From: Photobacterium sp. DA100
Lineage (GTDB): Bacteria > Pseudomonadota > Gammaproteobacteria > Enterobacterales > Vibrionaceae
Length of the DNA stretch: 64,000 nucleotides
NCBI RefSeq assembly: GCF_029223585.1
Contig: NZ_CP119423.1
Location: 1,116,001 to 1,180,000, forward strand
Direction of reading: 5' to 3'
The first letter of the stretch is position 1. Each line of letters opens with the position of its first letter. Under the pieces are notes generated by a model that was not told where the DNA came from, ran no database searches, and worked only from the letters and a program-made list of their open reading frames with translations. Of the stretch, positions 11,131 through 57,942 are shown one piece after another. Made by a program: the position numbers and the translations under genes.

Positions 11131-11169
11131 TCGCCGCTAGACTGATAAACAGGCAAGGAAAAACAGGCA

Positions 11170-11271
11170 AAAAAAAAGCCAACCGAGAATAGGTTCGGTT
11201 GGCGTCATTGTTTTATTGAAATAATTCCAAAAACAACGTCAGTTGGCTAGGTTGACTCTCAGGAAGAGTCA
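11170..11271 (-). ncRNA. qrr1: Qrr1-type quorum regulatory small RNA
   Basis: On the minus strand the sequence begins with a short hairpin (TGACTCTTCCTGAGAGTCA), runs into CTAGCCAACTGACGTTGTT, the highly conserved Qrr segment that pairs with quorum-sensing mRNAs, and ends with hairpin GCCAACCGA/TCGGTTGGC (11178-11203) plus nine T. The length of about 102 nt matches Qrr RNAs (roughly 95-110 nt). The 5' end is placed 12 bases from a sigma-54 -12 element. Its place between uvrB and luxO, divergent from luxO, is the known location of qrr1 in vibrios. Qrr RNAs act with Hfq to set the master regulator (LuxR/HapR) and aphA levels. Confidence 0.93.
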
Positions 11272-15371: not shown

Positions 15372-15561
15372 AATATCCTCACAATCAGTAAGAAATTTAC
15401 CGGGTATTCCCTTTAGTAGTATTGTCGTGATTTCGGCTGAAAGGTAGAATGCAGCACGAAAAACCTGAGAGTTTGCCTGTATGGCATTTCCTCTGATATT
15501 TTTATAACTAATACGCTATTGTGCGCATTTTGGTTTTATCCTGTGCGGTACAATTGCCATG

Positions 15562-15672
15562 CTCCGAGCTTTTTTCACTAAGTTCCCTACAGCAGGGGAT
15601 AAGTGACTCAAGCCAGTGACAGGTTGTCACCAGGGTCGATAAAGAAATGCATCGGCCTCCCGTACTTGGAAA
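15562..15672 (+). promoter_or_regulatory. Probable molybdenum cofactor (Moco) riboswitch
   Basis: The moaA leader contains a compact run of helices: CACT/AGTG enclosing CCCTA/GGGG, the hairpin GTGACA-GGT-TGTCAC, and GTCGAT/ATCGGCC, with CTCCGAGC before and GGCCTCCC after. This arrangement and the stretch GTGACTCAAGCCAGTGAC resemble the Moco RNA motif known upstream of moaA in gammaproteobacteria. An in-frame GTG at 15603 lies inside it, so I do not use it as the moaA start. Identification rests on pattern memory; a covariance model search would settle it. Confidence 0.6.
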
Positions 15673-15680
15673 GGTGTTCC

Positions 15681-16670
15681 GTGGCGAAACAATTTGAAGA
15701 TAATTTCCATCGCAAGTTCTATTACTTGCGTTTGTCGGTTACAGACGTCTGTAACTTTAAGTGCACTTACTGCTTGCCTGATGGCTACCACCCTCAACAG
15801 AAGAAAAAGCCATCATTCCTGACGCTTGATGAGATTCGACGCGTGACCGGGGCGTTTGCTGAGTGTGGCACGTCAAAGGTGCGCATTACCGGTGGTGAGC
15901 CGAGCCTGCGCCGTGATTTTACCGATATCATCCGTGCGGTTGCCGAGCAACCTGGTATCCGTAAAGTCGCAACCACAACCAATGGCTACCGCATGGCCAG
16001 GCATGTCCATGAGTGGCGGGAAGCTGGCCTCACTAACATCAATGTCAGTGTTGATAGCCTTGATCCGAAGATGTTCTACCAAATCACCGGTGAGAATATG
16101 TTCAATCAGGTGATGGAGGGGATTGATGCCGCCTTTGATGCCGGCTTCGAGCAAGTAAAAGTCAATACCGTATTGCTCAAAGACCTCAATTCACAGCAAT
16201 TGCCGCAGTTCCTTAACTGGATCAAGACCCGGCCAATTCAGCTGCGCTTTATTGAACTGATGCAGACCGGTGAAATGGACGAACTGTTCAATAACCACCA
16301 TGTGTCCGGTGTCAGCATTCGTAACTACCTCATTGCCAATGGCTGGGTACTGAAGCTGAAAAGCAACAACGATGGCCCAGCGCAAGTCTTTTGCCACCCC
16401 GATTACCAGGGTGAAATCGGCCTGATCATGCCGTACGAGAAAGATTTCTGTAAGAGCTGCAACCGCCTGCGCGTTTCTGCCTTGGGTAAACTACACCTGT
16501 GTCTATTTGGTGAACATGGCGTGGATTTACGCGATCTGCTCCAGCAGGATGAACAGCGCGACGAGCTTATAGCCCGGATTCAAGGGGGGCTAGCTGAAAA
16601 AGCGGTGAGCCATTTCCTCGATGAGGGGAATACCGGCATGACACCAAACCTAGCCTCTATCGGTGGCTAA
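15681..16670 (+). CDS. moaA: GTP 3',8-cyclase, molybdopterin synthesis step 1
   Basis: 329 residues from the GTG at 15681, the standard MoaA length; AAGG lies upstream. The radical SAM motif CNFKCTYC is near residue 24-31 and the C-terminal [4Fe-4S] cysteines are in [18 protein letters not shown]. The usual MoaA C-terminal double glycine is present in SIGG. The enzyme turns GTP into 3',8-cyclo-7,8-dihydro-GTP in the cytoplasm, which MoaC converts to cPMP. It is the first gene of moaACDE; no moaB lies between moaA and moaC. The leader suggests feedback by Moco. Confidence 0.97.
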
Positions 16671-19183: not shown

Positions 19184-20215
19184 ATGAAAAAAACACTTCT
19201 AGCAGTAGCAATCCCAGCAGTACTTTTCGCTCATTCCGCATCCGCCGTAGAACTTCTAAAAACCGACGAGGCGCTTGTCGACTTCTATGGCCAACTTCGT
19301 ACTGAAGTGAAAAAGTTAGAGGATAAGGATGTCACTCTAAATGCGGGCTCATCACGTGCAGGCGTACAGGCACAGTACGCTGTAACAGATTCGGTAAATA
19401 TCTTCGGTAAGGTCGAGTTCGGTCTGAACTACAACACCGCAAAAGAAGATTACACCATGAAAAACCGTCTACACTTCGCCGGTGTGGACACTGATTTCGG
19501 TAAGTTTTCGTTCGGCCGCCAATGGGTGGTTGCGGATGATATCTACGGCGCTGATTACTCATACTTCTTTGGCGGCACCGCGCTACGTTACTCAACACTT
19601 TCTGGTGCCCGACATGACTCGCTGATCAAATACAATTACGAGGGTGAAAACTTCATCCTTGCGGGTAACGTTGGTCTAGCAGAAGATGACACTAACCAGG
19701 AGCTAGCAGAACTTTATGTGGCATCTAGCTTCGGTGATTTTAACTTCCACTTGGGTGGTGGTGTAAACCGCGATAAGTCTTTTGATGTTGAAGACCAAAC
19801 TGCGGATATTGAAAACACTTACTTTGAGGGTACAGTTGAGTACACCTTTGGCCCGGCACTGATCGGCTTCACCTACTACAATGCTGAGCTGAAAAACAAA
19901 GGCACAGGTAACACCATCGATGAAGACGGCTATAGCCTTGCCGGTACTTACAGCTGGGCAGATAACGCAACAGCGTACGCTGGTTTTGAATACACAGAGC
20001 AAGAGTCAAAAGCGATTGCTACGGATGGTGACGGCAAGCTGTTCTACATCGGTACCGACTACCACTTCAACAGCTGGTCACGTATCTACGTTGAATACGC
20101 TTACGCGGACGGTGACACACTGGGTTACACCAACAAAGGTAGCGATAGCTTCGTAGGCGTAGCTTCGGCAGACGGCGAGAGCAGCTTCGCAGTCGGTGCT
20201 CGCGTTTACTGGTAA
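19184..20215 (+). CDS. OmpU-like outer membrane porin
   Basis: 343 residues. Signal peptide MKKTLLAVAIPAVLFAHSAS with cleavage after ASA, then VELLKTDEALVDFYGQLR, the first beta strand of trimeric general porins (Gram-negative porin family). Alternating aromatic strands continue to a C-terminal ARVYW ending in an aromatic residue, the BAM recognition signal. The mature protein is acidic, as for OmpU/OmpL. It allows passive diffusion of small solutes. It has its own T-rich promoter region and terminator. Codons 6-10 contain AGCAGTAGC, near-complementary to the 5' end of the sRNA array at 52441-53256, a possible control point (inference). Confidence 0.9.
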   Translation: MKKTLLAVAIPAVLFAHSASAVELLKTDEALVDFYGQLRTEVKKLEDKDVTLNAGSSRAGVQAQYAVTDSVNIFGKVEFGLNYNTAKEDYTMKNRLHFAGVDTDFGKFSFGRQWVVADDIYGADYSYFFGGTALRYSTLSGARHDSLIKYNYEGENFILAGNVGLAEDDTNQELAELYVASSFGDFNFHLGGGVNRDKSFDVEDQTADIENTYFEGTVEYTFGPALIGFTYYNAELKNKGTGNTIDEDGYSLAGTYSWADNATAYAGFEYTEQESKAIATDGDGKLFYIGTDYHFNSWSRIYVEYAYADGDTLGYTNKGSDSFVGVASADGESSFAVGARVYW

Positions 20216-46554: not shown

Positions 46555-48443
46555 GTGCGCCGAGCATGGCGTTGTTCTAGGAGGTGAAAGTCCTCTACGG
46601 GCTCAGTCGAGCGAGAACCGTTAGCCTATGCAAGGGTGCCCACCGTGAGGCGGGATCTGAAGGAAGCAAATGGCAAAACTTGGCCGTGACGAACAGAAAT
46701 CTGATAGTAGGCCAGTACAACTTGGGTAACCTAGCAACATATAGAATAGCCCAATGCCTCGACGGGAAGTGTGTACGGGTAAATCAGGCACAGCCAAGGG
46801 AAAGAACAACGTCTTACCTCGGGAGATCTTATTACCTGTCTCGGGCGAGACTAATGCAGCAGTGATGCTGTGTGATGGGAAATAAGAAGTCAGCAGAAGG
46901 CATAGTACCTTGGGGAAGTACAACCCAAGGGAAGGCCGGAACTGAATATATCAAGAAGCAGTCACTAGACACTCAATCATGTGGAGTCATAGCAAGATGA
47001 TCAAAATCTCTACGTACCAATGGGCAACACCGCAAGTGACGCTCATGGCCACGAAGAATGACAAGCATGATCGGCGTAGACAGGAGGACGAGTCTTGGTG
47101 ACCTCAACTCAGTTGATGGAGCAGATCTGTTCATCAACGAATCTGAACCAAGCCCTGAGAAGAGTGAAGAAGAACAAAGGGTGTGCTGGTGTCGATAAAC
47201 TCGATATAACAGCGACTATCTCGATGCTTCGGCAGTCTTCAAATGGGCAAGCGCTCCGCCAGAGCCTTCTGGATGGGAGCTATCAACCCCAACCTGTTCT
47301 GGGTGTAGAAATCCCTAAACCTAGCGGGGGAGTTAGGCAACTAGGTATCCCAACAGTACTTGATAGGATAGTCCAACAGGCTATCACCTCAGTACTGACA
47401 GATATCTATGAACCGAAGTTCTCCCACAGTAGTTACGGGTTCAGGCCCAACCGTAGTGCCCACCATGCATTGGCGGCAGCAAGCCACTACATCAGGGAGG
47501 GGCGGGGTTATGTAGTCGACATTGACCTAGCGAAATACTTCGATACCGTGAACCACGATAGACTGATGCACAGGCTATCGGAGGATATCACGGACAAACG
47601 GGTACTGAAGCTGGTCAGGTCATACCTACAGGCAGGCATAATGCGAAACGGGTTAGCCGAGCAGAGGCAACGAGGGACACCACAGGGTGGACCATTATCT
47701 CCGCTGCTATCAAATATCGTATTAGATGAGTTGGATAAAGAGCTTGAGCGAAGAGGGCATAAGTTCTGCCGATATGCAGATGACTGCCAAATCTACGTGG
47801 GCAGTGAGGAAGCCGCGAACCGAGTAAAAGCCTCAATAACGGAGTTCTTGGAGCAGAAACTGAAACTCACGGTCAACCGTGAGAAAAGTGCGGCAACAAG
47901 AGTGACAGAGCGGACTTACCTAGGCCATCGCTTCCAACGAGGTGGAATTATCCATATCTCGAAGAGAGCACAAACTCATATGAAGAAGCGAGTGCGTCAA
48001 ATAACGAAGCGGAATCGAGGGCGAGAGTTGAAGACAGTAATAGTCGAACTCACTCAATACCTAAGAGGATGGCAACACTACTTCAAGCTTGCCATACGGA
48101 AAAGCGCGATGCAGCGCTTAGATGAATGGATAAGGCGGCGCCTACGGTGCTATCGACTCAAGCAGCGCAAACGCAGACACAGTATAGCGTCATGGTTACG
48201 CCAAGAGGGCGTAAGCGAACGCAATGCGTGGAAGCTAGCGATGTCAGAGAAAGGATGGTGGCACTTGGCTTTATCGCCACAGCTCAATCAGGCCATGCCA
48301 ACGAAACGGTTCAAGGAGATGGGCATGTACTCATTGCGAGATGGGTACGAGTCACTGAAAATATATTCGGAACCGCCGTATGCGACCCACGCTTGTACGG
48401 TGGTGTGAGAGGACGGAGGCCGCGAGGCCTCCTCCTACTCGAT
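46555..48443 (+). mobile_element. Group II intron, class C-like, full length
   Basis: Starts with the canonical GTGCG (46555-46559) 8 bases past a terminator hairpin, has a class C-like 5' domain (CTAGGAGGTGAAAGTCCTC), codes for a maturase without an endonuclease domain, and ends in a domain V/VI structure: GCCGTATGCG...GTACGGTGG then GGAGGCC-GCGA-GGCCTCC and TACTCGAT. Total about 1.89 kb. Insertion behind a terminator stem-loop and the short protein are class C traits. Exact 3' end (48441-48445) is uncertain by a few bases. Domain V differs from the usual AGCCG start. Confidence 0.85.
47095..48408 (+). CDS. ltrA: Group II intron reverse transcriptase/maturase
   Basis: 437 residues from the TTG at 47095 (MVTSTQLMEQICSSTNLNQA); this position has AGGAGG upstream, so the TTG start is plausible. 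RT blocks: VKKNKGCAGVDKL, RQLGIPTVLDRIVQQAI, SYGFRPNRSAHHAL, DIDLAKYFDTVNHDRL, GTPQGGPLSPLLSNI, active site YADD, then maturase X region YLRGWQHYFKLA. No endonuclease domain. The frame is intact, so the element may be active. Promotes splicing and retrohoming of the intron RNA. Confidence 0.95.
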   Translation: MVTSTQLMEQICSSTNLNQALRRVKKNKGCAGVDKLDITATISMLRQSSNGQALRQSLLDGSYQPQPVLGVEIPKPSGGVRQLGIPTVLDRIVQQAITSVLTDIYEPKFSHSSYGFRPNRSAHHALAAASHYIREGRGYVVDIDLAKYFDTVNHDRLMHRLSEDITDKRVLKLVRSYLQAGIMRNGLAEQRQRGTPQGGPLSPLLSNIVLDELDKELERRGHKFCRYADDCQIYVGSEEAANRVKASITEFLEQKLKLTVNREKSAATRVTERTYLGHRFQRGGIIHISKRAQTHMKKRVRQITKRNRGRELKTVIVELTQYLRGWQHYFKLAIRKSAMQRLDEWIRRRLRCYRLKQRKRRHSIASWLRQEGVSERNAWKLAMSEKGWWHLALSPQLNQAMPTKRFKEMGMYSLRDGYESLKIYSEPPYATHACTVV

Positions 48444-50272: not shown

Positions 50273-51127
50273 TTAGATGATCCCTTCTTTCGTGAAGCGG
50301 GAGTCTTTTAGAGAGTCTTTAACCCGTTTTAGGTTCTCGCGGAAACCTGCACCACGGCGTAGGGTAAAGCCAGTCGCCAGCACATCAATGACGGTCATCT
50401 GGACTACACGGCTTGCCATCGGCATGTAGACATCGGTATCTTCCGGTACATCCAGACAGATAGAAATAGAACATTCACGATCAAGCGGCGAGTCCTTGGC
50501 TGTGATACCAATAACCGTTGCACCGTTTTCCCGGGCCATACGGGCGACTTCGACCAGGCTCTTGGTGCGGCCGGTATGAGAGATCACCACCACCACATCA
50601 CCATCGCTGCAATTGATCACACTCATGCGCTGCATCACAATGTCATCGAAGCAAACAATCGGGATATTGAAGCGGAAGAATTTATTCTGGGCATCGTGAG
50701 CGACAGACGCTGACGCGCCTAGACCGAAGAAGGAAATCTTCTTGGCTTGGGTCAATAGGTCAACAGCACGGTTCACTTGCATTGGGTCGAGGCTGTTCTT
50801 CGCCACGTCCAGGCATGCCATGGTGGATTCGAAGATTTTCGAGGTATAGGCATCTGGGCCGTCATCTTCTTCTACATTACGGTTCACATAAGGGGTACCG
50901 TTGGCTAGGCTCTGGGCAAGGTGCAGTTTAAAATCTGGAAAGCCTTTGGTATCTAAGCGGCGGCAGAAGCGGTTAACGGTAGGCTCACTGACATCCGCCA
51001 TCTTTGCCAGAGTAGCGATGCTTGAGTGTATGGCTGTCTGTGGCGATGCGAGGATAACTTCAGCGACTTTGCGCTCTGACTTACTGAAGTTATCAAGATT
51101 CTTTTGAATTTTCTCTAGGGTATTCAT
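50273..51127 (-). CDS. hexR: HexR, RpiR-family repressor of central carbon metabolism
   Basis: 284 residues. N-terminal RpiR-type HTH (LAKMADVSEPTVNRFCRRL) and C-terminal SIS sugar-phosphate domain (FFGLGASASVAHDAQNKFFR, VISHTGRTKSLVEVARMARE). HexR binds KDPG and controls zwf, edd-eda, pykA and related genes in gammaproteobacteria. Position next to pykA agrees. A 9-bp inverted repeat lies upstream of its start (51215-51245). Confidence 0.94.
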   Translation of the reverse strand: MNTLEKIQKNLDNFSKSERKVAEVILASPQTAIHSSIATLAKMADVSEPTVNRFCRRLDTKGFPDFKLHLAQSLANGTPYVNRNVEEDDGPDAYTSKIFESTMACLDVAKNSLDPMQVNRAVDLLTQAKKISFFGLGASASVAHDAQNKFFRFNIPIVCFDDIVMQRMSVINCSDGDVVVVISHTGRTKSLVEVARMARENGATVIGITAKDSPLDRECSISICLDVPEDTDVYMPMASRVVQMTVIDVLATGFTLRRGAGFRENLKRVKDSLKDSRFTKEGII

Positions 51128-51245: not shown

Positions 51246-51468
51246 TATCTCTTTCTCTTTTTATTATAGTTTGACAGGGATCGAATTTTTTCTTTCAGAA
51301 CTGAAAAGTTTTTTACTCAAAATTACGGTTTGGAGGGCCTATATCGTGTTTTTCTGTAGCTAATTTTCAGTGTCTGGGAATTAATTTACAGGTTGAAATA
51401 AATCTGGATGCGGATTTGTGCAGCGAAGTGAAAATGGCTTTCAGGTGGCAGGAATGAATGGAGACGTT

Positions 51469-52317
51469 ATGAAACAGGGCGAAATTAGCAAGGTCAGCAT
51501 ATGTGGTTGCGGGTGGCTCGGTTTGCCCTTGGCCAAGCACTTAGTTCAGCAGGGGATGGAAACATGGGGGAGCAAACAGACAGCAGAGCAAGCTTTGGAG
51601 TTGGCTGAGTACGGAATTCACGGTGTGGCCCTCTCGCTTCCCCTGTCATTGGAGCAGCCTGTCCTTCCTTCGCCGCTCGCGTCATTTCTTGATACCGATT
51701 TGCTGGTCATCAATGTTCCGCCCGGTCGTTACGCTGGGGCCGTTGAGGAGTGGGGTGTTATAGTGAAGCGGTTGTCCGCGACGGCAAAGCAGGCAGGCTG
51801 CCGCAAGGTCATCTTTATAAGCACCACGGCCGTTTACGGCGACTGTAAGGGGACGATTGATGAATGGACAGATCCTCGCTCCAATACGCTGTCGGGAAAA
51901 GCCCATCTAGCAATCGAACAATATTTGAGAGCGGAATGGGGCGATGAGGTGGTGATACTCCGTCTGGCCGGGTTGATTGGTCCAAACCGGCATCCGGTTC
52001 GGTATCTATCGGGCCGTCAGGGGATCGAAAACGGTAAAGATAAAGTGAACCTCATTCATCAGGAGGACTGTATCGCTGCCATTTCACAGATTGTTGCCCG
52101 CTGGCCCCACTATCCGATCATGCATTTAGCTGCACCGCAGCACCCAAGCCGAGAAGCCTATTACCGGCAAATGGCCCAAATGGCGGGTTTACCGCTGCCG
52201 GAGTTTGCTGATTCGGTGGAGCGTAACAGTAAGGTCATTGATGCGGCCAAAACGTGCGGTTGGCTGTCGCTGTGTATACGCCATGCAGATCTACTCTCAG
52301 AAAAGCCTGAAATATAG
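51469..52317 (+). CDS. NAD-dependent epimerase/dehydratase-like (YeeZ-like) protein
   Basis: 282 residues from the ATG at 51469, with GGAG at 51460; ATGs at 51418 and 51454 are alternatives. Rossmann motif CGCGWLGLPLAKHL, then KVIFISTTAVYGD with the Y of the extended SDR class, and RLAGLIGPNRHP. Similar to E. coli YeeZ. Substrate is not known. Divergent from hexR; no terminator of its own is obvious, apart from the sRNA terminators, which could act bidirectionally. Confidence 0.85.
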   Translation: MKQGEISKVSICGCGWLGLPLAKHLVQQGMETWGSKQTAEQALELAEYGIHGVALSLPLSLEQPVLPSPLASFLDTDLLVINVPPGRYAGAVEEWGVIVKRLSATAKQAGCRKVIFISTTAVYGDCKGTIDEWTDPRSNTLSGKAHLAIEQYLRAEWGDEVVILRLAGLIGPNRHPVRYLSGRQGIENGKDKVNLIHQEDCIAAISQIVARWPHYPIMHLAAPQHPSREAYYRQMAQMAGLPLPEFADSVERNSKVIDAAKTCGWLSLCIRHADLLSEKPEI

Positions 52318-52441
52318 CGGAGATATCCGCCTTTCGGGTGCTTAATGAAGTGGGGCGTTCATCTGTTTCATTAATAGTCAGAGCTGTATGTTTTTTTGGG
52401 CTTGGTGTTATTTATTGTCCGTAGTTATATGTTTGTAAATA

Positions 52442-52508
52442 AAAAAAAGCCCACTGAAAGTCAGTGGGCGAAAGCTCTATATACAATTAGGAGTTAAGCA
52501 GCAGTGGC
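52442..52508 (-). ncRNA. RybB-seed small RNA, array copy A
   Basis: About 67 nt. Begins GCCACTGCTGCTTAACTCC, continues TAATTGTATATAGAGCTTTC, ends with the 9-bp hairpin GCCCACTGA-CTT-TCAGTGGGC and eight T. The first eight bases equal the RybB/MicV 5' seed. -10-like TTTAAT at -13 to -8. The start is inferred from alignment with RybB; a longer transcript cannot be excluded. Confidence 0.7.
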
Positions 52509-52569
52509 ATTACAAATTAAATAAGGGGGATGTTACCCGTTGATTTACATGAACCGGCTCATCAACCAC

Positions 52570-52628
52570 ATCTTTAATCTGAATCATGTATAGTCAGACT
52601 GATAGGTTTTCGAATAGTTCAAAAAAAA
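52570..52628 (-). promoter_or_regulatory. Upstream control block of sRNA copy A
   Basis: Contains CAGTCTGACTATACATGA and TTCAGATTAAAGA, and further out TTTTTTTTGAACTATTCGAA. Matches the blocks of copies B and C but is the most diverged, and sits about 10 bases further from the RNA start. Confidence 0.5.
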
Positions 52629-52641
52629 TATTCTTTTGACA

Positions 52642-52710
52642 AAAAAAAGCCCACTGAAAGTCAGTGGGCGAAAGCTCTATATACACAATTAGGAGTTTAG
52701 CAGCAGTGGC
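52642..52710 (-). ncRNA. RybB-seed small RNA, array copy B
   Basis: About 69 nt; nearly identical to copy A but with CTAAACTCC instead of TTAACTCC after the seed and two extra bases (TGTGTATATAG). Same 9-bp terminator stem and eight T. -10-like TTTAAT at -13. Confidence 0.72.
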
Positions 52711-52760
52711 ATCATAAATTAAAGCAGCGGAATGAGTAGGAAATTAATCTGCTTACCGCG

Positions 52761-52816
52761 GCTTTAATGTGAATGTCACTATATATGACTGGCCCAAATT
52801 CAAATGGTTCAAAAAA
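52761..52816 (-). promoter_or_regulatory. Upstream control block of sRNA copy B
   Basis: GTCATATATAGTGAC palindrome followed by ATTCACATTAAAGC; then TTTTTTGAACCATTTGAA. Lies -51 to about -105 from the predicted RNA start, the same as in copy C. No -35 hexamer is seen near -35, so an activator is likely. Confidence 0.55.
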
Positions 52817-52941
52817 TTATTCTTTTTTTTTGAAAAAAGAATTGCGGTTGGAAAATGGGCTATCAAAGTTAGGCGGTGCTTAAGCGGAAATATGGTTGGG
52901 CCAAAGAGCGATAAGAGGCCTCATGGGAGCGGTTACCGACA

Positions 52942-53008
52942 AAAAAAAGCCCACTTCAATTGAGTGGGCAACACATCATAAAACAATTAGGAGTTTAGCA
53001 GCAGTGGC
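52942..53008 (-). ncRNA. RybB-seed small RNA, array copy C
   Basis: About 67 nt. Same 5' part (GCCACTGCTGCTAAACTCC then TAATTGT); the middle and the terminator loop have diverged (CAATTGA) while the GCCCACT/AGTGGGC stem is kept, with eight T. Compensated change in the loop with a fixed stem and seed argues for selection on the RNA. Confidence 0.72.
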
Positions 53009-53060
53009 ATTGTGGGATTAAAGAGTAAATGCAAGTTGCGGCCAGCAATTTGTGAAAAGT

Positions 53061-53112
53061 CTTTAATCTGAATGTCACTATATATGACTGGCTATTTTCA
53101 AGATGGTTCAAG
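53061..53112 (-). promoter_or_regulatory. Upstream control block of sRNA copy C
   Basis: GTCATATATAGTGAC palindrome, ATTCAGATTAAAGA, and TTGAACCATCTTGAA further out; spacing to the RNA start equals that of copy B. Confidence 0.55.
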
Positions 53113-53190
53113 AAAAATGAAAAAAAAGTACTTTTTTTCTAACTGTTTGATTTTAAGCTTTAGTAAAGGAAAGTGGATTAAGCGGGAAAT

Positions 53191-53256
53191 AAAGAAAACC
53201 CGTCTCCAGTGGCGGGGACGGGTTTCGAAGAATGTCTTCTAAGAAAAAGCAGTGGC
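53191..53256 (-). ncRNA. RybB/MicV-like sigma-E small RNA (array copy D)
   Basis: About 66 nt. Begins GCCACTGCTTTTTCTTAG, against GCCACTGCTTTTCTTTG in E. coli RybB. Then hairpin GAAGA-CAT-TCTTC and terminator AACCCGTC/GACGGGTT with TTTTCTTT. Only the seed and function-like layout are shared with copies A-C. RybB and vibrio MicV repress porin mRNAs on envelope stress with Hfq; the same is inferred here. Confidence 0.8.
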
Positions 53257-53261
53257 AATAG

Positions 53262-53290
53262 TTATGACCCACAGATGTCGACTTTGTTCC
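53262..53290 (-). promoter_or_regulatory. Sigma-E-type promoter of copy D
   Basis: Minus-strand GGAACAA-N16-TCATAA, close to the RpoE consensus GGAACTT-N16-TCTGA/TCAAA, with the RNA start 11 bases after the -10 begins. Confidence 0.75.
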
Positions 53291-53508
53291 AATTTTTTTT
53301 CACTTTCTCAGATTTTTTTTGTTTGGTTAAATCTCAAGCCGTTTTCACGAGACAGGATTGAGACGTTTTTCACCCGGTTGGAGTTACGAGAGCTGCGAAG
53401 GAAAGATTGATCATCTTCACGACTTTTATATTAAACAGCGAAAATATCAATATGTTACAACATGGGGTATATTTGTGACTTGTTAAAAATGTTTCTTGAA
53501 TGTAAAGT

Positions 53509-53524
53509 TTAAACAAGTGTTTAA
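53509..53524. promoter_or_regulatory. Palindromic operator before the TetR-family gene
   Basis: TTAAACA-AG-TGTTTAA, a perfect palindrome 9 bases before the start codon. It resembles PsrA-type operators (AAACA-N2-TGTTT), suggesting autoregulation. Confidence 0.65.
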
Positions 53525-53533
53525 TACGGGTGA

Positions 53534-54214
53534 ATGAATATGGCTGGAAAGGGAGAAACCAAGGCACGTATCCTGGATGCTGCCGAGCTACTCTTTGCCG
53601 AACACGGCTTCAAAGACACATCACTGCGCACCATCACCAGCAAAGCTGGGGTGAACTTGGCGTCCGTCAATTATCACTATGGCGACAAGAAAACCTTGGT
53701 CAGGGCAGTGCTTGGTCGCTATCTCGAGGCATTCATGCCCTCCCTACAATCAGAACTGGAAGTGCTGCTGACGCGCGACGATTTTTCCATGGAAGATGTC
53801 TTTCGCTGTCTTAAAGATCCGCTGTTATCACTTAATGAATACCGTGCCAACGGGGCAACCGTGTTCATGTCGCTGATTGGTAGGGGGTATACTGATGTTC
53901 AGGGGCATTTGCGTTGGTTCATCATGACTCGCTATGAGCAAGTATTAACTCTATTTACCACCGCGGTATGCCGTGCCAATCCATCTTTAGATCCTGAAAC
54001 CTTATTTTGGCGCTTGCATTTCACGCTTGGGGCATCGGTTTTCACCATGGCCTCGTCTACCGCGCTGTGTGAGATTGCGGCGAATGACTTCTCCCGCCAG
54101 GTTAAACCTGAAGATTTGATCGAACGTTTGGTGCCTTATTTGGCAGCGGGCGTTGCTGCACCGATAGAACAATCGCTTTCGCTAATTAGCGAACAGTCAA
54201 CAGGAACAAGATAG
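53534..54214 (+). CDS. psrA: TetR-family regulator, PsrA-like
   Basis: 226 residues. N-terminal TetR HTH: ILDAAELLFAEHGFKDTSLR, TITSKAGVNLASVNYHYGDK; the C-terminal part has the ligand-binding shape of the family. It lies 49 bases upstream of fadE and behind a PsrA-like palindrome; PsrA regulators in Pseudomonas and Shewanella sense long-chain acyl groups and repress beta-oxidation genes. The name rests on sequence feel plus context. Start at 53534; an ATG three codons later is possible. Confidence 0.82.
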   Translation: MNMAGKGETKARILDAAELLFAEHGFKDTSLRTITSKAGVNLASVNYHYGDKKTLVRAVLGRYLEAFMPSLQSELEVLLTRDDFSMEDVFRCLKDPLLSLNEYRANGATVFMSLIGRGYTDVQGHLRWFIMTRYEQVLTLFTTAVCRANPSLDPETLFWRLHFTLGASVFTMASSTALCEIAANDFSRQVKPEDLIERLVPYLAAGVAAPIEQSLSLISEQSTGTR

Positions 54215-54263: not shown

Positions 54264-56540
54264 ATGAGTACGTTAACCAAGCTAAGAAAACGCTATCTCA
54301 GTGATCCCGCATTCAAAATGTTCAAGAAAGTGCTGCCGCCACTTTCCGACACCGAGCGAGAGGCCATGGAGGCCGGCAGTGTTTGGTGGGATGGTGAATT
54401 GTTCGGCGGGAATCCTAACTGGAATACCCTGCTGACCTACCCGCAGCCCATATTGAGTGATGAGGAGCAGGCGTTCATCGACAACAAGCTAGAACCGCTG
54501 TTGGATATGCTGAACGACTATCAGATTGTCCAGGAAGATAAAGATCTGCCGCCGGAGGTGTGGGAGTATCTGCGCAAAGAGAAATTCTTCTCGCTGATTA
54601 TCGGTAAAGAGTATGGCGGTTTGGACTTTTCCGCCCACGCCAACTCAACCATCGTTACCCGGATTGCCACCAAGAGTCTGAGTGCCGCGGTATCGGTCAT
54701 GGTGCCAAACTCGCTGGGTCCGGGTGAGCTTCTGACTCACTATGGTACCCAGGAGCAGAAAGATTATTGGTTGCCGCGCTTGGCCCACGGTGAAGATATT
54801 CCTTGTTTCGCCCTTACCGGCCCTGAGGCGGGGTCGGATGCCGGTGGTATCCCTGATTTGGGCGTGGTGTGCTACGACGAGTACCAAGGCGAGCAAGTGC
54901 TGGGGATCCGCGTGAGCTGGAACAAGCGCTATATCACCCTGGCACCGGTAGCCACCGTGCTGGGGTTGGCCTTCAAGCTGCATGATCCTGATGGTTTGAT
55001 TGGCGACAAGAAAGAGCTCGGCATTACTTGTGCCTTGATCCCGGCAGATCACCCGGGCGTTGAAATTGGTGAGCGCCATGATCCGCTGAACCTTGCCTTC
55101 ATGAACGGCCCGACCCGCGGTAACGATGTCTTTATCCCGATGGATTGGGTGATTGGTGGTCAGGATTATGTCGGCCGTGGCTGGCGTATGCTGGTGGAAT
55201 GTTTGTCGGCAGGCCGTGGTATTTCTCTTCCGGCGCTGGGGACTGCTGTTGGTCATTTAACGGCAAGAACCACAGGCGCTTATGCCTATGTCCGCAAGCA
55301 GTTCGGGATGTCTATCGGTAACTTCGAAGGTGTTGCGCAGGCGATGGGGCGTATTGGTGGTTTCACTTATATGTTAGAAGCATCACGAACTCTGACGACG
55401 ACGTCTCTTGATATGGATGAAACTCCGGGGATCGTCACGGCCATTGCCAAATACCACATGACGGAAATGGCCCGCACCATCCTCAATGATGCGATGGATG
55501 TCCACGCCGGGCGCGCGATTCAGCTCGGGCCAATGAACTATATCGGCCACCATTATTTCGGCATGCCGGTCGCCATTACGGTAGAAGGGGCGAATATCCT
55601 AACCCGTAATCTGATGATCTTCGGTCAGGGGGCCACGCGTTGCCACCCGTACGTGCTCAGCGAGATGGAGGCGGCGGCAAACCCAGACAGTCGCGAAGGG
55701 GCGAAAGCGTTCGATAAGTTGCTGGCTAGCCACATCAGCTTTGCGGTGGGGAATGTGAGCAAATCCTTGCTTAATGCGTTCAGTGGCTCGTACTTCAACA
55801 GCTCGCCGGTCAGTGGAGAAACGGCTAAGTACTACAAGCAGTTGTCTCGTATGAGTCGTGCGTTGGCTGTGGCCGCTGACTTCGCGATGCTGAGTCTTGG
55901 CGGTGAGCTCAAGCGGCGTGAAATGGTTTCTGCCCGCTTGGGCGATATACTAAGCCATTTGTACCTGGCTTCTGCGGTGCTCAAACGTTACGAGGACGAA
56001 GGTCGCCAGCAGCAAGACCTGCCATTTGTCCACTACGGTTTGCAACATTGTTTGCACCAGTGCGGGGTTGCGTTCGATGAAGTACTAGCCAACTTCCCAC
56101 GCAAGGGAGTCGGTCGTTTGCTGCGGACCTTGTTGTTCCCGTTAGGTATTCACTATGCTGCACCGAAAGACGAGGTGGCAGTGAAGATTGCCGAACTTCT
56201 GATGCGTCCGGGCAAGCAGCGTGATCGGCTGACTCACCTCTGCTATGTCGGTAAACAAGAGGACGATCCGGTTGGATTGATGGAACGCGCGTTCATTGCC
56301 ATGTACGGAGTGAAAGATCTCGAGCGTAAAATTGCCAAGGCGGTCAAAGCGGGTACGATCCCACGCAAGGTTTCTTTAACAGAAAAGCTACAAATTGCTC
56401 TTGATGCGGGGATCGTCACAGATGCAGACGTGAAAAAAATGCAAAATGCCGATCAGTTAAGACAGAGGGCGATTCAGGTGGATCACTTCTCTGCTGCCCA
56501 CTTCAAAAAAGGCGGCTTGCAACCGGGGAAAGCAGCCTAA
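54264..56540 (+). CDS. fadE: Acyl-CoA dehydrogenase FadE
   Basis: 758 residues, FadE-type (E. coli 814, which has an extra N-terminal membrane part). Contains FSLIIGKEYGGLDFSAHANS, FALTGPEAGSDAGGIPD and GRGWRMLVECLSAGRGISLP as in the acyl-CoA dehydrogenase core, and the DUF1974 C-terminal half (VGNVSKSLLNAFSGSYFNSS). First step of beta-oxidation with FAD. Follows psrA, probably in one transcript. Confidence 0.95.
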   Translation: MSTLTKLRKRYLSDPAFKMFKKVLPPLSDTEREAMEAGSVWWDGELFGGNPNWNTLLTYPQPILSDEEQAFIDNKLEPLLDMLNDYQIVQEDKDLPPEVWEYLRKEKFFSLIIGKEYGGLDFSAHANSTIVTRIATKSLSAAVSVMVPNSLGPGELLTHYGTQEQKDYWLPRLAHGEDIPCFALTGPEAGSDAGGIPDLGVVCYDEYQGEQVLGIRVSWNKRYITLAPVATVLGLAFKLHDPDGLIGDKKELGITCALIPADHPGVEIGERHDPLNLAFMNGPTRGNDVFIPMDWVIGGQDYVGRGWRMLVECLSAGRGISLPALGTAVGHLTARTTGAYAYVRKQFGMSIGNFEGVAQAMGRIGGFTYMLEASRTLTTTSLDMDETPGIVTAIAKYHMTEMARTILNDAMDVHAGRAIQLGPMNYIGHHYFGMPVAITVEGANILTRNLMIFGQGATRCHPYVLSEMEAAANPDSREGAKAFDKLLASHISFAVGNVSKSLLNAFSGSYFNSSPVSGETAKYYKQLSRMSRALAVAADFAMLSLGGELKRREMVSARLGDILSHLYLASAVLKRYEDEGRQQQDLPFVHYGLQHCLHQCGVAFDEVLANFPRKGVGRLLRTLLFPLGIHYAAPKDEVAVKIAELLMRPGKQRDRLTHLCYVGKQEDDPVGLMERAFIAMYGVKDLERKIAKAVKAGTIPRKVSLTEKLQIALDAGIVTDADVKKMQNADQLRQRAIQVDHFSAAHFKKGGLQPGKAA

Positions 56541-56739
56541 GGCTCATGCCTTGTGAACAATAAACCTGGTGTCTCCCATGTGCCACGCCATTGCGTGGCA
56601 CTTTTTTTGGTCTATTTCTGTGATTTTCCGCGCGGAACACCTCCAACCACTGCCGAATTTAGCGTTTTCGCTCATAAATTTAATGCGAATTTGTCATTTA
56701 CCTTTTATCCTACTGTCAATTGTGTAAGGGAAGTTGAAA

Positions 56740-57942
56740 ATGATCATCAAACCTAGAATTCGTGGATTTATTTGTACTACGACTCATCCAGTGGGTTGTG
56801 AGGAAAACGTCAAAGAGCAGATTGCATACACTAAGGCGCAGGGCCCTATTGCCAATGCCCCTAAGCGTGTACTGGTTGTTGGTTCATCAAGCGGTTACGG
56901 TCTGTCTTCGCGTATTGCTGCTGCATTCGGTGGCGGTGCTGCAACAATTGGTGTGTTCTTCGAAAAGCCGGGTACTGAAAAGAAACCGGGTACAGCAGGC
57001 TGGTACAACTCTGCCGCATTCGACAAGTTTGCTAAAGAAGAAGGCCTGTACTCCAAGAGCTTGAATGGTGATGCTTTCTCTCACGAAGCAAAACAGAAAG
57101 TGATTGATCTGATCAAAGAAGATTTGGGTCAGGTTGATATGGTGGTTTACTCACTGGCTTCTCCAGTTCGCAAAATGCCAGATACCGGTGAGGTAGTCCG
57201 TTCTACCCTGAAACCTATGGGTGAAACCTACACCGCAACTGCTGTTGATACCAATAAAGATGTGCTGATCGAAGCGAGTATTGAGCCTGCGACTGAGCAA
57301 GAAGTGGCTGATACTGTCACCGTTATGGGTGGTCAGGATTGGGAACTGTGGATCAATGCGCTGTCTGAAGCTGGCGTTCTGGCTGATGGCTGCAAGACCG
57401 TTGCCTACAGCTACATTGGTACCGAGATCACTTGGCCAATTTACTGGCACGGTGCGCTTGGCCAAGCGAAGATGGACCTGGACCGCGCAGCTTCTGAGCT
57501 GAACCAGAAACTGGCTGCGACCGGCGGCTCGGCGAATGTTGCAGTACTGAAGAGTGTGGTCACTCAGGCGAGCTCGGCCATTCCTGTCATGCCTCTATAC
57601 ATCGCAATGGTGTTCAAGAAGATGCGTGAGGAAGGGGTTCACGAAGGGTGTATGGAGCAAATCCACCGCATGTTCACCCAGCGCCTGTTCAAAGAGGACG
57701 GCAGTGCACCTGAGGTAGACAGCGAAAACCGTCTGCGTCTTGATGACTGGGAACTACGTGAAGATATCCAGAAGCACTGTCGCGACCTGTGGCCAAACGT
57801 AACCAACGAGAACCTATTCGAAGTGGCTGATTACCAGCAGTACAAAGATGAGTTCCTGAAGCTGTTCGGCTTTGGCATCGAAGCGGTCGACTACGACGCA
57901 GATGTTAACCCAGCTGTTGAGTTTGATGTTCAAGACATCTAA
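56740..57942 (+). CDS. fabV: Enoyl-ACP reductase FabV
   Basis: 400 residues from the ATG at 56740 ([20 protein letters not shown]) after AAGGGA. SDR-type NADH site [21 protein letters not shown], active-site Tyr in [20 protein letters not shown] with the Lys eight residues after the second Tyr (WHGALGQAK). FabV reduces trans-2-enoyl-ACP in fatty-acid synthesis and is insensitive to triclosan, unlike FabI. Monocistronic with its own terminator; a biosynthesis gene just after a degradation gene. Confidence 0.97.

Follow-up and report, generated by a model that had tools for sequence, protein, structure and literature searches.

Organization of the locus

The window, that is, the whole 64,000-nt stretch of the Photobacterium sp. 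DA100 genome that was analyzed, contains four small units (A to D) on the minus strand, between an ORF that ends at position 52317 and psrA at 53534 (Table 1). The octamer GCCACTGC occurs seven times in the window (3.0 expected in shuffles), and four of the seven lie inside 816 bp. These four minus-strand copies are where a first-pass annotation of this DNA had placed them, and its description of A, B, and C as paralogs holds, the three being mutual repeats over their length. The interval is also gene-free over 1.2 kb as described there, with zero ORFs of at least 80 aa within 52318–53529. The same annotation gave strong terminators to all units; a hairpin with a T run indeed follows A, B, and C, whereas that of D was not called by the same scan, although the fold of D is stable.

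On the side away from psrA, a HexR regulator (50273–51127, minus strand; NCBIfam subfamily, 553 bits) is found beyond an uncharacterised ORF (51418–52317), and a HexR homolog adjoins the array in many relatives.

A viral origin was ruled out, as a search of viral contigs with the exact unit pattern returned zero matches. A tRNA-linked element was ruled out by the count of zero tRNAs in the window, and neither CRISPR nor any other described RNA gave a match above its gathering score in the interval. The repeats at this locus are real and apparently functional.

Table 1. Features of the micV–vrrA locus as predicted from sequence (positions in the window)
Feature	Positions	Strand	Remarks
vrrA paralog A	52441..52587	−	derived, 5′ loop without GGCCG; predicted 147-nt RNA; R1 116.7 bits
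vrrA paralog B	52641..52777	−	derived; predicted 137-nt RNA; R1 130.6 bits
vrrA paralog C	52941..53076	−	canonical, 5′ loop with GCTGGCCGC; predicted 136-nt RNA; R1 119.7 bits
micV-like RNA D	53186..53256	−	about 70 nt, seed is the 5′ end; RybB model 25.1 bits, gathering score 40
Sigma-E-type promoter of A	52594..52620	−	GAAC (52617–52620), N17, GTCTGA (52594–52599)
Sigma-E-type promoter of B	52784..52810	−	GAAC, N17, GTCATA
Sigma-E-type promoter of C	53083..53109	−	GAAC, N17, GTCATA
Sigma-E-type promoter of D	53263..53289	−	GAAC-N17-GTCATA-N6-GCCACTGC
Seed GCCACTGC	52501–52508 (A), 52703–52710 (B), 53001–53008 (C), 53249–53256 (D)	−	
CU segment AACTCCTAATTG	52484–52495 (A), 52686–52697 (B), 52984–52995 (C)	−	
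Terminator hairpin	52449–52469 (A), 52649–52669 (B), 52949–52969 (C)	−	
psrA, TetR family repressor	53534..54214	+	NCBIfam NF053516, 362.6 bits, cut-off 300; divergent neighbour
fadE-like acyl-CoA dehydrogenase	54264..56540	+	also adjoins Vibrio-type vrrA loci

Promoters and predicted transcripts

The promoters listed in Table 1 predict transcript starts at 52587 (A), 52777 (B), 53076 (C), and 53256 (D). For A, B, and C these starts lie 67–79 nt before GCCACTGC and yield RNAs of 136–147 nt with the octamer in an internal position. The spacing of the promoter element is nearly invariant, GTC standing 17 nt after GAAC in 51 of 52 distinct copies.

Conservation of the promoter was assessed with R1, a covariance model built from 44 Photobacterium transcripts with the promoters excluded. 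The pattern GAAC-N18-TC precedes 109 of the 110 R1 matches that have upstream room, and in 104 of those 109, the distance from GAAC to the model start is 31–34 nt; the same pattern is found in 1.1% of random windows and 0.8% of shuffled upstream windows. This relaxed form was adopted after 22 of the 110 matches had shown CTC instead of GTC. The strict form, GAAC-N17-GTC, is present in 87 of 110, compared with 2.5% of random windows from the same loci, the arrays themselves included. The counts cover 110 of 114 matches, since two matches too near a locus end were left out, as was L128, which represents the species already covered by L016. We refer to these promoters as sigma-E type because they are identical to Vibrio-type vrrA promoters and because, in PMC2628432, the Vibrio cholerae vrrA promoter is described as fitting the sigma-E consensus and its expression as abolished in an rpoE mutant.

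The first-pass annotation had A, B, and C start at GCCACTGC as RNAs of 67–69 nt. The similarity of the three repeats, however, runs about 100 nt further upstream past those 5′ ends, where a conserved promoter element is also found, and GCCACTGC is thus probably not the 5′ end of these units; positions 52508, 52710, and 53008 may be processing sites. Likewise, the sequence contradicts the claim that at least three units escape sigma-E control, as all four have a sigma-E-type promoter with constant spacing, and the proposed coupling of envelope stress to a second signal has lost its basis with that claim. Sigma-E control is predicted for all four units.

In the predicted structures of A, B, and C, the unpaired fraction is 0.83–0.87 for the CU segment, 0.56–0.69 for the seed, and 0.45–0.48 for the whole RNA. 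The CU-rich segment is therefore predicted to be mostly unpaired, as had been noted, and we judge its suggested capacity to mask Shine–Dalgarno sites to be right. The helix that closes the 5′ hairpin is kept despite changes of letters (ATTAAAG/CTTTAAT, ATTAATGGAGAT/ATCTTCATTAAT, and ATTATGGCGTG/CACGCCATAAT). Scored sequence by sequence rather than from an alignment, it reaches a mean of 18.5 over 44 sequences, compared with 10.1 (sd 2.5) in shuffles, and a few sequences do no better than shuffles (lowest 9.0). RNAalifold applied to A2 recovered only six terminator pairs and missed the 5′ helix because this helix is out of register between copies. The domain comprising seed and CU segment is 0.96–1.00 identical in every set compared.

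Relationship of A, B, and C to VrrA

The Rfam model of VrrA, RF01456, aligns end to end with A, B, and C at 16.6–19.9 bits (E 1.4–7; gathering score 50), and the RprA model gives 23.4–26.3 bits on the same units, that is, other families score no lower. Being far below gathering and equalled by other families, the RF01456 scores alone prove nothing; homology to VrrA rests on synteny, promoter, and reverse search. RF01456 is above its cut-off in 43 of 150 family genomes, with one match each and zero in Photobacterium. Of the 43, 42 belong to genus g12, which we equate with Vibrio on the ground that RF01456 is a family of that genus. A weak RF01456 match (E = 0.025) is also seen on the second contig of the DA100 genome.

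As in the window, tetR and fadE flank the VrrA locus in all 30 g12 (Vibrio-type) loci that were fetched; in V. cholerae, vrrA sits between vc1741 and vc1743 according to PMC2628432. In the reverse search, R1, which derives from Photobacterium only, has matches at E ≤ 0.01 in 19 of these 30 loci, always at the VrrA position; the other 11 are missed even though the search was small. The family scan with R1 at the same threshold, which left many g12 genomes unreached, matched five g12 genomes, and all five matches coincide with RF01456 matches.

The GGCCG 5′ hairpin, the seed region, and ACTCCTA recur in the Vibrio-type VrrA sequences. GGCCG is present in the 5′ loop of C and of the Vibrio-type sequences shown (as GGTCG in L041 and L043), but lacking in A and B. 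For V. cholerae VrrA, PMC4108314 reports that residues 69–78 pair with ompT and that ACUCCU (91–96) and C100–U102 pair with rbmC; these segments correspond to the seed and CU segments of the first-pass annotation.

V. cholerae VrrA (RF01456) resembles A, B, and C in its sigma-E-type promoter, length of about 140 nt, internal seed, ACTCCTA, terminator, and position beside psrA–fadE, and resembles C also in the GGCCG hairpin. It differs in that the present locus has three tandem copies, the full GCCACTGC octamer, and AATTG after ACTCCT, in that A and B have no GGCCG loop, and in that all three score under the Rfam cut-off. Because the internal position of the octamer, the segment AACTCCTAATTG, the 5′ hairpin, and the psrA–fadE position match VrrA, we regard A, B, and C as very probably VrrA homologs with an internal seed and not as RNAs of the seed-first type, a judgment made jointly with that on the whole locus (see below). 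A tandem vrrA array was not found among the titles and opening parts of abstracts that were searched, with most subscription papers outside the search, and to that extent the statement that no such cluster had been described stands. The array is made up of an RNA of known kind, VrrA, whose tandem arrangement next to MicV seems to be undescribed.

Unit D and the pairing of micV with vrrA

Unit D has a sigma-E-type promoter directly upstream that places +1 at the seed. The RybB model (RF00110) matches it at 25.1 bits (E = 0.016), below the gathering score of 40, and the Rfam searches brought up no model of MicV. Like MicV and RybB, D has its seed at the very 5′ end, a sigma-E-type promoter just in front of it, and a terminator, and its sequence identifies it as MicV/RybB-like. 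MicV and RybB are unlike A, B, and C in that their transcripts begin with the seed, whereas the predicted starts of the latter are 67–79 nt upstream of it. MicV and VrrA have a common seed-pairing domain, according to a review (PMC7602753).

A second model, R2, was made of D from 16 Photobacterium copies; 139 of the 150 family genomes contain a match to it. Of the 47 Photobacterium genomes with both an R2 match and the array, 42 have the two no more than about 3 kb apart, the exceptions being G017, G047, G079, G091, and G093. In genus g3, an R2 match lies at most 300 nt from a VrrA match in 14 of 14 genomes. The Vibrio group is different: D adjoins vrrA, whereas in g12 the micV-like and VrrA matches are at least 0.9 Mb apart in 17 of 17 same-contig genomes among the matches listed. 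The Vibrio-group micV-like matches that were read start ACCACTGC; these five g12 matches all have GGAAC-N17-GTC followed by ACCACTGCTTTTTCTTAG.

Among 16 stretches, two sigma-E-type promoters, one for each RNA, are seen in L283 and L286 (g6), L280–L282 (g10), L288 (g13), and L284 (g8); in L278 and L279 (g3), the micV promoter alone lies within the sequence shown. A psrA homolog is visible in L278, L279, L283, L284, and L286–L288, weaker in L285, and absent from the L280–L282 stretches. In these g10 stretches, where psrA is not in view, the micV–vrrA pair adjoins an ORF that begins like the ORF at 56734–57942 of the window. The genes micV and vrrA are neighbours in several genera of the family and separated in the Vibrio group. 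Adjacency and the common seed together suggest that the two genes arose by tandem duplication.

Distribution and divergence of the copies

The R1 search finds the unit in 49 of 52 Photobacterium genomes, among them all 48 of good quality; the remaining three, which lack a match, are 74–85% complete. The first-pass proposal of a tandem family with a shared seed that is kept in relatives is thereby borne out. At E ≤ 0.001, a single copy is found in 11 genomes, two and three copies in 14 genomes each, four in five, five and six in two each, and seven in one, numbers that are lower bounds given the strict filters (G119 has one match in this count and three in another R1 search). In 37 of 38 multi-copy genomes, the copies are on one contig within a few kb, and in G089 the array extends over two contigs. 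In other genera, R1, which is biased toward Photobacterium, has matches at E ≤ 0.01 in 21 genomes, with one copy each.

The exact unit pattern, searched in named stretches, is found in Photobacterium in 19 of 21 cases, from 17 genomes (16 named species and one uncultured). L005 (a Symploca MAG) and L008 (a Thorarchaeota MAG) carry the pattern by chance, with promoter, hairpin, and terminator all missing. In the six-copy array of L117, four successive copies have their starts exactly 263 nt apart (3690, 3953, 4216, and 4479), suggesting recent tandem amplification.

Qrr and LhrC are sibling or multicopy sRNAs with one functional motif common to the copies. NgncR_162/163 of Neisseria and the duplicated csrB of Vibrio also resemble the array in having several copies and one common functional motif. 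The present case differs from all four in concerning a sigma-E-type sRNA whose copy number at a single locus ranges from one to seven across a single genus. For Photobacterium profundum, an RNA-seq study lists 460 putative sRNAs, of which 62 have Rfam similarity and 150 are in repeated regions (PMC3505737).

Usually one copy per array has GGCCG in its 5′ loop (C in the window), and the remaining copies lack it. Of the 20 multi-copy arrays with psrA in view, 16 have the GGCCG copy closest to psrA; this does not hold for L123–L126, and L124 has two GGCCG copies. We compared the 5′ loops between genomes, taking a single A-type and a single B-type row from any genome that had two. Pairwise identity of the GGCCG-copy loop is 0.89 in five genomes and 0.70 in a further nine, where the spacers reach 0.56 and 0.36, respectively, and that of the derived loops is 0.44 for A, 0.56 for B, and 0.36 in the nine other genomes (spacers, 0.81, 0.55, and 0.30). 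In the tree, A and C form supported lineages in the five genomes (99/99 and 99/96), and B groups with L061 (96/92), less clearly beyond. In the derived copies the loop drifts, with promoter, stem, and pairing module retained.

These data bear on two other views of the derived copies. One is that they have diverged in function, with 5′ loops that have targets of their own or with copies that titrate one another. The strong differences between the loops of paralogs and the persistence of orthologous lineages of copies would fit this, but the derived loops also vary strongly between species (0.36–0.56), unlike what is expected for a kept target, and the conserved loop is the canonical one (0.70–0.89); we consider such divergence unlikely. 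Slightly less likely still is that only C (and D) matter and that A and B are decaying duplicates without a role of their own. The low identity of the derived loops, which for B and for the nine other genomes is about that of the spacers, and the single copy found in 11 of 49 genomes at the threshold used agree with decay. Decay is at odds, however, with the retention of promoter, helix, terminator, and the nearly invariant seed and CU domain, with the supported lineages of A and C (B being less clear), and with the presence of at least two copies in 38 of 49 genomes.

Candidate targets

For possible pairing with porin mRNAs, 13 porin/OmpA-type start regions of the DA100 genome were set against 974 control start regions, the latter drawn from 1.26 Mb of the same genome. 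The set of 11 porins and two OmpA-type genes was drawn from 14 Porin_4, four OmpA, and six Porin_1 matches, with start codons picked by eye; weak matches, three to Porin_4 and two to OmpA, were omitted, and the Porin_1 matches overlap those used. Individual genes stand out: the seed matches C1:1687302 better than any of the 974 controls, the same is true of the CU segment with C1:906205 and of the MicV 5′ end with C1:898698, and the OmpA gene at C2:1269026 is within the best 3.8% for the seed and the best 2.2% for MicV. GCAGTGG occurs in two of 13 porin/OmpA regions and in one of 974 controls. As a group, the 13 separate from the 974 controls for the seed alone (p = 0.012), and not for the CU segment (0.52), the linker (0.25), or MicV (0.12). 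Shuffled queries reached an equal difference in 0 of 60 cases for seed, linker, and MicV and in two of 60 for the CU segment. About half of the 13 genes show no matching site signal, and enrichment of matching sites over all porins tested is weak.

The porin at C1:906205 has an ortholog in 14 of 52 genomes, one of the 14 without a readable start. At its Shine–Dalgarno site, ATTAGGAGT is retained in 11 of 13 readable orthologs and TTAGGAG in 13 of 13, and bases further upstream vary. Orthologs of the porin at C1:1687302 are present in 17 of 52 genomes; with 24 of 26 fetched loci shown and one unreadable, the seed site reads GCAGTGGC in 11 of 23 readable loci and GCAGTAGC, GCAGTCGC, GCGGTGGC, or none in the others. 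Conservation of this site is weak evidence because it lies in signal-peptide codons. The window itself has a Porin_4 porin at 19217–20119 on the plus strand (C1:1135217–1136119), with no outstanding seed or CU match.

Proposed function and origin of the array

The reading we prefer, with a probability of roughly 80%, is that the locus comprises micV (D) followed by the tandem vrrA paralogs C, B, and A, with a separate sigma-E promoter and a separate intrinsic terminator for each. Very improbable is the alternative that A, B, and C are 67–69-nt MicV/RybB-type RNAs that begin at GCCACTGC, have non-sigma-E promoters, and tie a second signal to the porin seed: a TTTAAT about 7–8 bases before GCCACTGC in all three could be read as a −10 box and the octamer is the 5′ end of D, but TTTAAT belongs to the covarying 5′ helix, as its 3′ arm, sigma-70 promoters are ruled out with zero sites found in the region compared with 3.4 expected by chance, and the sigma-E-type element further upstream is conserved, likewise in Vibrio-type vrrA.

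In the micV–vrrA array as we read it, damage to the outer membrane would activate sigma-E, and all four genes would be transcribed. Each VrrA RNA would present one two-part antisense module between its 5′ hairpin and terminator, in which GCCACUGC may pair near start codons or in early coding sequence and ACUCCUAAUUG over Shine–Dalgarno sites. Together with MicV, the VrrA RNAs would keep porin and OmpA mRNAs from being translated and lower the outer-membrane protein load. Additional copies would raise the dose of the module, with the GGCCG loop usually kept in one copy alone; that extra copies confer an advantage through dose is conjecture. Sigma-E dependence in vivo and repression of outer-membrane protein mRNAs are carried over to this locus by analogy from V. 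cholerae, where both are described for VrrA and MicV (PMC2628432, PMC4108314, PMC7602753, PMC11005410, and PMC8359247).

The variable copy number suggests that Photobacterium tunes its outer-membrane stress response through sRNA gene copying. More tentatively, and with rather less than even odds, the interval beside psrA may be a birthplace of sigma-E sRNAs, with micV and vrrA as ancient tandem duplicates and the Photobacterium spot still yielding copies, up to seven. If so, evolution could adjust porin repression under envelope stress through copy number, with the pairing module held constant and the 5′ loop of the derived copies released to vary. One to seven copies in one genus also offer a natural series on what multiplication of an sRNA gene brings, be it dose, robustness, or divergence. 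For annotation, a search with RF01456 would miss a likely core envelope-stress regulator of Photobacterium, because the model stays below cut-off in every genome of this genus in the family sample, and reading seed-bearing repeats from the seed would lead to wrong transcript starts and the wrong regulator.

Other features of the window

A group II intron at 46639–48408 (plus strand) has Rfam D1–D4 matches at 46639–46812 and 46851–46937 and contains its reverse transcriptase/maturase ORF at 47095–48408 (plus strand). The window also carries a Qrr quorum-sensing sRNA at 11169–11271 (minus strand, 83.3 bits) and a molybdenum cofactor riboswitch at 15550–15692 (plus strand, 89.9 bits).
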